Assembly (NCBI RefSeq): GCF_028713515.1
Contig: NZ_JAQTOD010000001.1
Location: 310,001-374,000, forward strand
Source of the DNA: Sulfurimonas sp.
GTDB lineage: Bacteria; Campylobacterota; Campylobacteria; Campylobacterales; Sulfurimonadaceae
Reading direction: 5' to 3'
DNA: 64,000 bases
The notes below the pieces were generated by a model. The model was not told where the DNA came from and did not search any database. It saw nothing but the letters and a program-made list of their open reading frames with translations. Within the stretch, counting starts at the first letter, position 1, and every line of letters begins with the position of its first letter. This document shows, one piece after another, positions 28,400 to 30,370 of the stretch. The translations under genes were made by a program, and so were the position numbers.

Positions 28400-28810
28400 A
28401 TGCGATCCGTTTACAGTTCTTATAACAACAGCACCACCCCAACCACCACCAATTCCTATCAGCAAGACAAAGATAAATTGAACACGTTCATGGACAAAAT
28501 GAAAAAATCGATCGAGGGCGGTGATTTTGAGAGTGCCAAAGCACTGTTAGAAGAAGCCGACAAATTGGTTCAGACCAATTCTACCCAAAATAGAAGCACC
28601 AAGATAAGTCAACAGCAAGAGGAACTTAAAAGCCAGCTGGACACGCTCTCCGATACCCTCAATAAAAAAGACAAAAAATCGGCGTTAGAGACCATAACGA
28701 ACATCAAAGACGAGCTCAAAAACAATAAAAACCTTGTCTTAAAATCGCACAGCTCTTCCGACATCGTTGCCGAACTGCGATCGCAATTTTTACTCTCCGT
28801 TTATGCGTAA
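28400..28810 (+). CDS. Hypothetical coiled-coil protein, 136 aa
   Basis: I do not recognise a family. The N-terminus is low complexity (SSYNNSTTPTTTNSYQQ). A long heptad-rich helical region, about residues 24-115, follows (DKLNTFMDKMKKSIEGGDFESAKALLEEADKL, then QQQEELKSQLDTLSDTLNKKDKKSALETI), and it ends SDIVAELRSQFLLSVYA. There is no signal peptide or membrane helix. A strong ribosome site (AAGGAGAG) precedes the ATG. Codon use (ATC, GCC, GAC, CTC) matches the island and not the native genes. Helix pairs and Ala-containing repeats faintly recall TPR. It lies upstream of the leuA leader with 58 bp between. Confidence 0.75.
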   Translation: MRSVYSSYNNSTTPTTTNSYQQDKDKLNTFMDKMKKSIEGGDFESAKALLEEADKLVQTNSTQNRSTKISQQQEELKSQLDTLSDTLNKKDKKSALETITNIKDELKNNKNLVLKSHSSSDIVAELRSQFLLSVYA

Positions 28811-28836
28811 GAGTATTAAAACGTACAAAAATAAGC

Positions 28837-28842
28837 TACAAT
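28837..28842 (+). promoter_or_regulatory. Candidate -10 box for the leuA leader transcript
   Basis: TACAAT (within AAGCTACAATTTC) lies 26 bp upstream of the leader-peptide ATG, in the 58-bp gap after the coiled-coil gene. No convincing -35 is visible. Confidence 0.4.
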
Positions 28843-28868
28843 TTCACAACATATAAAAAGGAGAGACC

Positions 28869-28955
28869 ATGAAAAGTCATACCATGCCTATTTCAAACCC
28901 AATTACGGACAACCGTATCGCGAGCTTTTCTCTCCTCCTGCTAAACCTGCTGTAA
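28869..28955 (+). CDS. Leucine-rich leader peptide of leuA (28 aa)
   Basis: A short ORF too small for the track encodes MKSHTMPISNPITDNRIASFSLLLLNLL and stops 107 bp before leuA. It has a strong ribosome site (AAGGAGAG, 5 nt spacing). Six of the last seven codons are leucine (CTC CTC CTG CTA, then AAC, CTG CTG). A leucine run directly before the stop, upstream of the first leucine-pathway gene, is the hallmark of a transcription-attenuation leader peptide such as enteric leuL. It is followed by two competing hairpins and a T run (see next entry). The role is inferred from this arrangement. Confidence 0.82.
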   Translation: MKSHTMPISNPITDNRIASFSLLLLNLL

Positions 28956-29003
28956 TTTTCCTTTTTTCCCGTTTCTTTTTTTAATCTTTAGTTTTGCCAT
29001 CTT

Positions 29004-29039
29004 GGGCGTAATGCGTCCATATGTCGGCATTTTTTTATT
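29004..29039 (+). promoter_or_regulatory. Attenuator-like alternative hairpins upstream of leuA
   Basis: Two short structures share bases. GGGCG-taatg-CGTCC (29004-29018) could form first. The alternative AATGCG...CGGCATT (29010-29031, one bulged G) is directly followed by TTTTTATT and looks like an intrinsic terminator. Because they overlap, only one can exist at a time, as in terminator/antiterminator pairs. Stems are short (5-6 bp) and were found by eye, and the link to ribosome stalling on the leader codons is not worked out. Confidence 0.5.
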
Positions 29040-29062
29040 GTTAAACAGTTAAGGATAACTCT

Positions 29063-30370
29063 ATGCACACGCATACAAAATACACGCCGTATCCAACGGT
29101 AAAATTGGAGAATCGAGAGTGGGCGGATAAGTCTGCCACAGTTGCCCCTATGTGGGTTAGTACCGATTTACGAGATGGTAATCAAGCACTTGCTAATCCG
29201 ATGGGAACCCAGCAAAAGATCGCGTATTTCAAAGCGTTGGTTGAGTTTGGATTCAAAGAGATCGAGATTGCCTATCCGAGTGCATCACAGACGGAGTTTG
29301 ATTTTTGCCGTCGTTTGATAGAGGAAGGATTGATTCCCGATGATGTCACTATCGGTATCCTCGTTCCCTCGATAGAGCGTCATATCATTCGTAGTTTCGA
29401 GGCATTGCGCGGAGCAAAGCGAATTAATATGCACCTTTATAATCCAACCGCGTCGAATCAGCGCGATGTTGTGTTTAAACGGAGTAAAGAAGAAATCATC
29501 GCGTTGGCATTACAAGGGGTAGAGTGTATCAAACGCGAAGCAGGGACGTTTGAGGGAGAGGTGATATTCGAGTATTCGCCGGAGAGCTTTTCGCAGACGG
29601 AGTTGGAGTTTGCCCGTGACATCTCTAATGCCGTGATCACAGTATGGCAACCGACGCGAGAACAGCCGATGATCTTGAATTTGCCTAACACCTTGGAAGC
29701 GTGTTCGCCGAACATCTATGCCGATCGTATCGAATGGATGGGCAAACAGATCATTCACCGTGATTGTGTCATCATCAGCGTCCACCCGCATAACGACAGA
29801 GGGTGTGCGGTGGCGAGTGCGGAGTTGGCAGTATTGGCAGGTGCGCAGAGGGTGGAGGGGACGATCCTTGGCAACGGCGAGCGGGCAGGGAACGTCGATT
29901 TGGTGACGTTGATGTTTAACTACTACGCACAAGGGATCGATCCGAAGCTTCATATCCAAAAAGTCGATGAGATATTGAGCCGTATCACGGCGATTACCGC
30001 GCAAAGCGTCCCAGAACGTCATCCGTATGTGGGATCGCTTATCTATACCGCGTTTTCAGGGACACACCAAGATGCAATCAAAAAAGGGATTGAGCATCGT
30101 CGTACTCAGAGGAGCGATAGATGGGAAGTCCCGTACTTGGCAATCGATCCGCGCGATATAGGTCGGGAGTACACCGATACGATCCGTATCAACTCACAAT
30201 CGGGCAAAGGGGGCGTCGCTTATATCTTAAAAGAGATTTATGGCATCGAGATTCCCAAAGATATGCAGTCGATGATAGCCGACGAAGTGAAACGTATCTC
30301 CGAATCACGTGGCGGCGAGATCAGCAGTGATGAGATATTAGGGATTTATGAGGGGATGAGACGGTTGTAA
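29063..30370 (+). CDS. leuA: 2-isopropylmalate synthase, catalytic part only (no LeuA regulatory domain)
   Basis: The first committed enzyme of leucine synthesis, condensing acetyl-CoA with 2-oxoisovalerate. The N-terminus (YTPYPTVKLENREWADKSATVAPMWVSTDLRDGNQALANPM) belongs to the long actinobacterial/yeast-type LeuA. Metal and active-site motifs are present: STDLRDGNQ and VHPHNDRGCAVA. That type is normally about 550-600 aa, with a C-terminal leucine-binding domain. Here the protein ends at 435 aa just after the linker subdomain (EISSDEILGIYEGMRRL). No continuation is seen in any frame downstream, so it is a natural short form. Leucine feedback should be lost; attenuation by the leader may replace it. 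AAGGATAA precedes the ATG. Confidence 0.92.
   Translation: MHTHTKYTPYPTVKLENREWADKSATVAPMWVSTDLRDGNQALANPMGTQQKIAYFKALVEFGFKEIEIAYPSASQTEFDFCRRLIEEGLIPDDVTIGILVPSIERHIIRSFEALRGAKRINMHLYNPTASNQRDVVFKRSKEEIIALALQGVECIKREAGTFEGEVIFEYSPESFSQTELEFARDISNAVITVWQPTREQPMILNLPNTLEACSPNIYADRIEWMGKQIIHRDCVIISVHPHNDRGCAVASAELAVLAGAQRVEGTILGNGERAGNVDLVTLMFNYYAQGIDPKLHIQKVDEILSRITAITAQSVPERHPYVGSLIYTAFSGTHQDAIKKGIEHRRTQRSDRWEVPYLAIDPRDIGREYTDTIRINSQSGKGGVAYILKEIYGIEIPKDMQSMIADEVKRISESRGGEISSDEILGIYEGMRRL

Follow-up and report, generated by a model that had tools for sequence, protein, structure and literature searches.

Covariation between the leucine codons and the Shine-Dalgarno sequence of leuL-type leaders suggests a self-locking attenuator upstream of leuA in Sulfurimonas

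Upstream of a short leuA gene in Sulfurimonas sp., we identified a leucine-rich leader ORF whose ribosome site can form a long-range helix, here called P1, with the serine and leucine codons of the same leader, and across a wider collection of such leaders the two strands of this helix covary. Judging from sequence comparison, we consider it probable, at roughly 0.6, that the leader is a leucine-responsive attenuator of the leuL type whose control codons have the further role of locking the leader's own ribosome site. Below, the window denotes the whole stretch of 64,000 nucleotides that was analysed, to which all coordinates refer.

Results

The leader ORF and its conservation

The leader, leuL, is an ORF of 28 codons on the forward strand (28869-28955, stop included) with the product MKSHTMPISNPITDNRIASFSLLLLNLL, preceded immediately by the ribosome site AAAAAGGAGAGACC, in which AGGAG is the Shine-Dalgarno (SD) sequence. 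Its last seven codons, CTC CTC CTG CTA AAC CTG CTG, comprise six leucines and give the peptide the C-terminus SLLLLNLL; they are followed by the stop codon TAA (28953-28955), from which 107 bp separate the leuA start codon, ATG at 29063. The sequence thus bears out the preliminary description, which had pointed to a 28-codon leucine-run ORF with a strong ribosome site at this distance from leuA. Upon scanning both strands of the 64-kb window for SD-preceded ORFs of 10-50 aa with at least six leucines in the last seven codons, we found leuL to be the only one. A candidate -10 box of a putative leader promoter, TACAAT, lies at 28837-28842 on the forward strand, and TACAAT or TATACT occurs at a similar spacing 5' of the leader in the orthologues L002, L003 and L091-L093; a consensus scan gave no match to a -35 element for this promoter. 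Rfam returned no match above the gathering score in the window, and only sub-threshold matches at chance level for 28780-29120.

Leaders were present at all 16 host-family orthologues of the 435-aa leuA, the window counted in, and at all 16 short-leuA orthologues of a second family (L004, L097-L111). Since 31 further orthologous loci carry it too, the reality of the leuL ORF is settled at the level of sequence, and the same conservation supplies the retention of the leucine run in homologous upstream regions that the preliminary description had named as a check. Extending the collection across the order, with leaders selected by SD and leucine content and without use of pairing, we obtained 95 SD-preceded leuL-type leaders (59 non-redundant), located upstream of leuA of both enzyme types. 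The N-terminal half of the leader diverges and the terminal leucine run is retained in all orthologues; host-family leaders carry an S-L-L-L-(L) run near their end, replaced by ALLLRLLLSL in L094-L096, and second-family leaders terminate in VVVLLLKLR or a near variant. In the latter, three valine codons are followed by three leucine codons, mostly as SLVVVLLLKLR, which suggests that these leaders may sense valine and leucine jointly. No leaders were found at full-length leuA loci of the same genus.

The preliminary description knew of no such case in Campylobacterota, a view that the literature corrects: Porcelli et al. 2013 (PMC3847290) report LeuL, TrpL and MetL leaders in C. jejuni, a LeuL of 28 aa with five rare leucine codons, and LeuL-like ORFs in most Epsilonproteobacteria possessing leucine genes; they propose attenuation and state that the leader RNAs "terminate shortly behind the stopcodon". 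Translation of C. jejuni LeuL was demonstrated by Ribo-seq in 2025 (PMC11955535). Judged by the features that define LeuL in this phylum, namely 20-35 aa, a ribosome site, C-terminal leucine codons and a position upstream of leucine biosynthesis genes, the leader in the window is a LeuL by sequence, with 28 aa, AGGAG and six leucines among its last seven codons. It differs from C. jejuni LeuL in preceding a lone short leuA paralogue without feedback domain instead of leuABCD, and in being followed by a terminator hairpin. In the main text of Porcelli et al. (PMC3847290), neither "hairpin" nor "stem-loop" occurs and no pairing of an SD with leucine codons is mentioned.

Pairing between the leader ribosome site and the leucine codons

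In the window, P1 consists of 8 bp between the leader SD, AGGAGAGA (28859-28866, forward strand), and TCTCTCCT (28929-28936, forward strand), which lies within the Ser-Leu-Leu codons; both strands emerged from the covariation tests, from RNAalifold and from the fold spanning SD to stop. The remaining leucine control codons, beginning at codon two of the run (CTC CTG CTA AAC CTG CTG), occupy 28935-28952. Across loci P1 is a long-range helix of 8-10 bp, and RNAalifold recovered both it and the terminator hairpin unprompted from an alignment of 12 homologues, with nothing further than a trivial 2-bp pairing inside the leucine run.

Because P1 is nearly invariant inside the host clade, its proof was drawn from the wider leader set. 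There, the bases after the SD core differ between lineages and the leucine codons change in step, as seen in GGAGAGA/TCTCTCC (window), GGAGAAG/CTTCTCC (L094-L096), GGAGAAA/TTTCTCC (L115), GGAGCAG/CTGCTCC (L113), AGGAGGATAGA/TCTATCCTCCT (L039), AGGATAGAAG/CTTCTATCCT (L043), GGAGAAGT/ACTTCTCC (L021) and AGGAGAGAT/ATCTCTCCT (L142). Upon pairing each SD with its own leucine window in the 59 loci, we obtained -10.82 kcal/mol compared to -9.52 kcal/mol with swapped partners, a difference reached in 0 of 2000 shuffles; in a stricter set of 38 loci, in which no SD 9-mer occurred twice and leucine windows were less than 70% identical, own-partner pairing was matched by 0 of 20,000 partner shuffles, a procedure that leaves some relatedness among loci. 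When the register was set by AGGAG only, the four bases following it gave 128 matches to their predicted partners, compared to 92.6 expected (0/5000). Synonymous recoding of the same peptides, with codons taken from the same leaders, reached the observed pairing in none of 300 trials. As the leaders had been picked by SD and leucine content and not by pairing, these tests are not circular. P1 was absent or weak in L033, L053, L055, L056, L127, L134, L140 and L158.

When the leader locus of the window was folded in full context, its SD favoured the U-rich tract behind the stop codon over the leucine codons, with a probability of SD:Leu pairing of at most 0.27; in the orthologues L091 and L094, the fold favours P1. 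Though it competes with P1 in the window fold, pairing of the leader SD with the post-stop tract was rejected as a conserved interaction, as the same shuffle test gave no covariation for it.

A covarying helix at the leader ribosome site might also serve a narrower purpose: P1 could merely limit synthesis of the leader peptide or stabilise a short leader RNA, with leuA set by the hairpin or by a separate promoter and leucine not sensed by the codons at all. A sequence resembling a -10 box does lie in the leader-leuA spacer of many lineages (L048, L057, L115, L172), and mutation of the leucine codons in the leuA leader of S. coelicolor did not produce classical attenuation, as cited in PMC1262725. 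Yet the six leucines among seven terminal codons, found in all orthologues, are hard to explain without leucine sensing, and in the spacer of the window we noticed nothing that resembles a -10 box, so we regard this account as unlikely.

We likewise examined the other ribosome site within reach of the leucine codons, that of leuA. In the actinobacterial LEU element, the base stem joins leucine codons to the leuA SD (Seliverstov et al. 2005, PMC1262725), and translational control of the same type, with the leuA SD held by the leucine codons and freed by a stalled ribosome, could appeal to this precedent and to the purine-rich leuA SDs of our loci. The leuA SD paired with its own leucine region at -6.18 kcal/mol, however, compared to -6.07 kcal/mol for swapped partners, and 558 of 2000 shuffles were as good; given this lack of covariation, sequestration of the leuA SD by the leucine codons was rejected, and control of this type appears very improbable. 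The LEU element and leuL share a leucine-run leader ORF before leuA and leucine codons that themselves pair with an SD, but the partner is the leuA SD within a pseudoknot fold in the former and the SD of the leader ORF in the window.

The terminator hairpin

Homologue alignment, RNAalifold and a shuffle test all indicated a nested terminator-like hairpin with a U-tract at 28995-29036 on the forward strand. Its outer stem joins TGCC (28995-28998) to GGCA (29026-29029), its inner stem GGGCGT (29004-29009) to GCGTCC (29013-29018), and the U-tract spans 29030-29036. The hairpin scores -13.7 kcal/mol and is followed by TTTTTTTA, while shuffled sequences averaged -3.0 kcal/mol, with 0 of 12 as good; a generic terminator scan missed it, as its interior loops exceed the limits of that scan. 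Among 15 homologues, the structure UGCC[GGGCGU...GCGUCC]GGCA retains 96.7% of its pairs, and in the majority of them a U-rich tract comes next. It is likely an intrinsic terminator in the host clade, placed, as in classical attenuation, between the leader and the structural gene.

The preliminary description had read this region as the layout of ribosome-mediated attenuation with two mutually exclusive stems. A leucine leader and a terminator-like hairpin before leuA are indeed present, and the complementary segments of the second stem exist in the window as well (AATGC, 29010-29014, and GCATT, 29027-29031, followed by TTTTT), but the competing stems are not conserved. In an enteric-type switch, GGGCG/CGTCC and AATGCG/CGGCATT would act as antiterminator and terminator under the control of a stalled ribosome; this draws on the ability of both stems to form in the window, on the order of leucine run and U-tract, and on L112 and L114, where overlapping GCCC/GGG and GGG/CCC pairings also precede T-runs. 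Against mutual exclusion, AATGC/GCATT retains 80% of its pairs in the 15 homologues, being lost in four of them (L003, L094-L096), whereas the nested hairpin is kept almost throughout; RNAalifold gives no alternative structure; and the stems lie about 40-75 nt 3' of the stop codon, out of reach for a ribosome on the leucine codons. An enteric-type switch is thus doubtful, and more so than the narrower role of P1 considered above. Compensatory changes, which the preliminary description had proposed as a check, are slight in the nested hairpin: L091 has one pair of the outer stem changed on both sides, from CG to UA, and several one-sided changes were seen besides. Its other proposal, folding of 28869-29062, did not help the case: the 194 nt folded no better than shuffled sequences (z -0.04), so that folding energy alone is no evidence here.

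With a cut-off of -5 kcal/mol or better, a clear intrinsic terminator was found in 9 of the 59 non-redundant leuL spacers, and in none of the 23 spacers that measure 66 nt or less from leader stop to leuA. Because most leuL loci are without an intrinsic terminator, the leuL family as a whole cannot rely on competition between hairpins of the classical kind.

The post-stop tract and the spacer

Directly behind the leader stop, the window contains a G-poor, C/T-rich unstructured tract (28956-28994, forward strand), which by its composition is a candidate Rho loading region. Over the first 40 nt behind the leader stop, G averages 5.7% and C 18%, compared to 12-13% each in control regions, and C exceeds G in 58 of the 59 non-redundant leaders, compared to 34:20 upstream of the leader. 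As a rho gene is present in the genome, most lineages have no terminator, and the post-stop tract is G-poor and C-containing, the simplest general reading would be that Rho loads beside the stop codon, at a site masked whenever a ribosome stalls on the final codons; the rut assignment is made from base composition.

The spacers vary in other ways. Those of L021, L115, L116, L169, L171 and L172 share a conserved TTTGCATAT..TTTATGCTATATT motif, which may fold into a small hairpin or, resembling a -10 box, mark a second promoter. In L097, L099 and L105, repeat-like blocks with inverted repeats (GTTCTTGCAAAATAGCAAGAAC...) are inserted between the terminator hairpin and leuA, stretching the spacers to about 340-390 nt.

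The leuA genes

The gene behind the leader (29063-30370, forward strand) encodes a 2-isopropylmalate synthase of 435 aa, assigned by NCBIfam to the type-2 family NF002991 (648 bits) and by Pfam to a catalytic HMGL-like domain followed by IPMS_D2; the LeuA_dimer regulatory domain was not found in it by Pfam. The sole LeuA_dimer of the genome resides in a full-length LeuA paralogue of 552 aa on contig C2 (L031:1548-3206), whose gene lies downstream of a glutamine-synthetase-like gene and has no leader before it. A lone leucine-rich candidate at that position was rejected, as it starts with TTG, is not preceded by an SD and straddles the end of the coding region of the gene before it. In Sulfuricurvum-type relatives, the catalytic part of the short LeuA is joined to a C-terminal SAM-dependent methyltransferase domain that takes the place of the missing feedback domain (L120:4001-6094, 697 aa, Methyltransf_11, E 6.5e-23), and open frames of 682-683 codons likewise occur in L091 and L094-L096; the short LeuA of the window is without this fusion.

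Discussion

From the elements obtained by sequence comparison, namely the leader, its leucine run, the P1 helix, the terminator hairpin of the clade and the G-poor tract, we assembled the following scheme. A first ribosome would initiate on the leader before the leucine codons are transcribed. With leucine plentiful, it would complete the leader and depart, upon which the Ser/Leu codons (28929-28936) could pair with the leader SD (28859-28866) and block re-initiation, keeping the RNA behind the leader free of ribosomes, and the transcript would end before leuA. Under a shortage of Leu-tRNA, the ribosome would instead stall on the terminal leucine run, so that P1 could not form and the leader would stay occupied, a state that would let RNA polymerase reach leuA. 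Termination would be brought about in the host lineage by the nested hairpin (28995-29036), the likely intrinsic terminator, and in most other lineages, which have none, probably by Rho, with the ribosome on the last codons covering the loading site in a manner comparable to TnaC. That leucine is sensed by the leader is suggested by its codons, and P1 would be the element that shuts leader initiation. What leads from P1 to leuA is presumed, as is relief of the hairpin by stalling; the scheme does not account for read-through of the hairpin upon stalling, because the hairpin shares no bases with P1, and neither homologue alignment nor RNAalifold gave a conserved, mutually exclusive antiterminator.

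In the enteric leu, ilv, his and trp attenuators, the leader peptide abounds in the amino acid under control, and a terminator precedes the first structural gene. The leuL loci resemble them in the composition of the leader and, in the host lineage, also in the terminator, but differ in that they lack a conserved antiterminator/terminator switch and that most members have no intrinsic terminator. For E. coli trp, a limit on leader translation that arises when the ribosome site of the leader is occluded has reportedly been discussed. In E. coli TnaC, a stalled ribosome masks a rut site that lies immediately past the stop codon, giving Rho-dependent attenuation (PMC8429421). The window shares with tnaC the end of an ORF as the (here proposed) site of stalling and an adjoining candidate rut region; tnaC, however, stalls through its nascent peptide in excess tryptophan, whereas we propose a starvation stall on codons together with the SD lock.

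LeuL itself is already known in Campylobacterota; for control codons that pair with, and thereby lock, the SD of their own leader, we found no description in the open-licence literature searched. Our wider proposal is more tentative than the reading of the leader as a leuL-type attenuator, and we hold it at somewhat less than even odds: Campylobacterota may possess a distinct form of amino-acid attenuation, with control codons that act as the anti-SD of their own leader, with re-initiation only while a starved ribosome occupies those codons, and with termination that in most species depends on Rho instead of on competing hairpins.

Control of leucine synthesis through a leader peptide had been proposed for Campylobacterota without a mechanism, because most leuL loci are terminator-less, and a helix that covaries between SD and control codons offers a mechanism that can be tested. 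P1 would account for the "rare" CTC and CTG codons found in place of TTA; if the wider proposal is true, codon choice in the leader is set by pairing with the SD and not by codon rarity alone. P1 may further serve as a signature for detecting leaders that annotation has missed. For the organism, the arrangement would place a leucine synthase that lacks its feedback domain under leucine control at the level of RNA, while the leaderless full-length paralogue retains the feedback domain.
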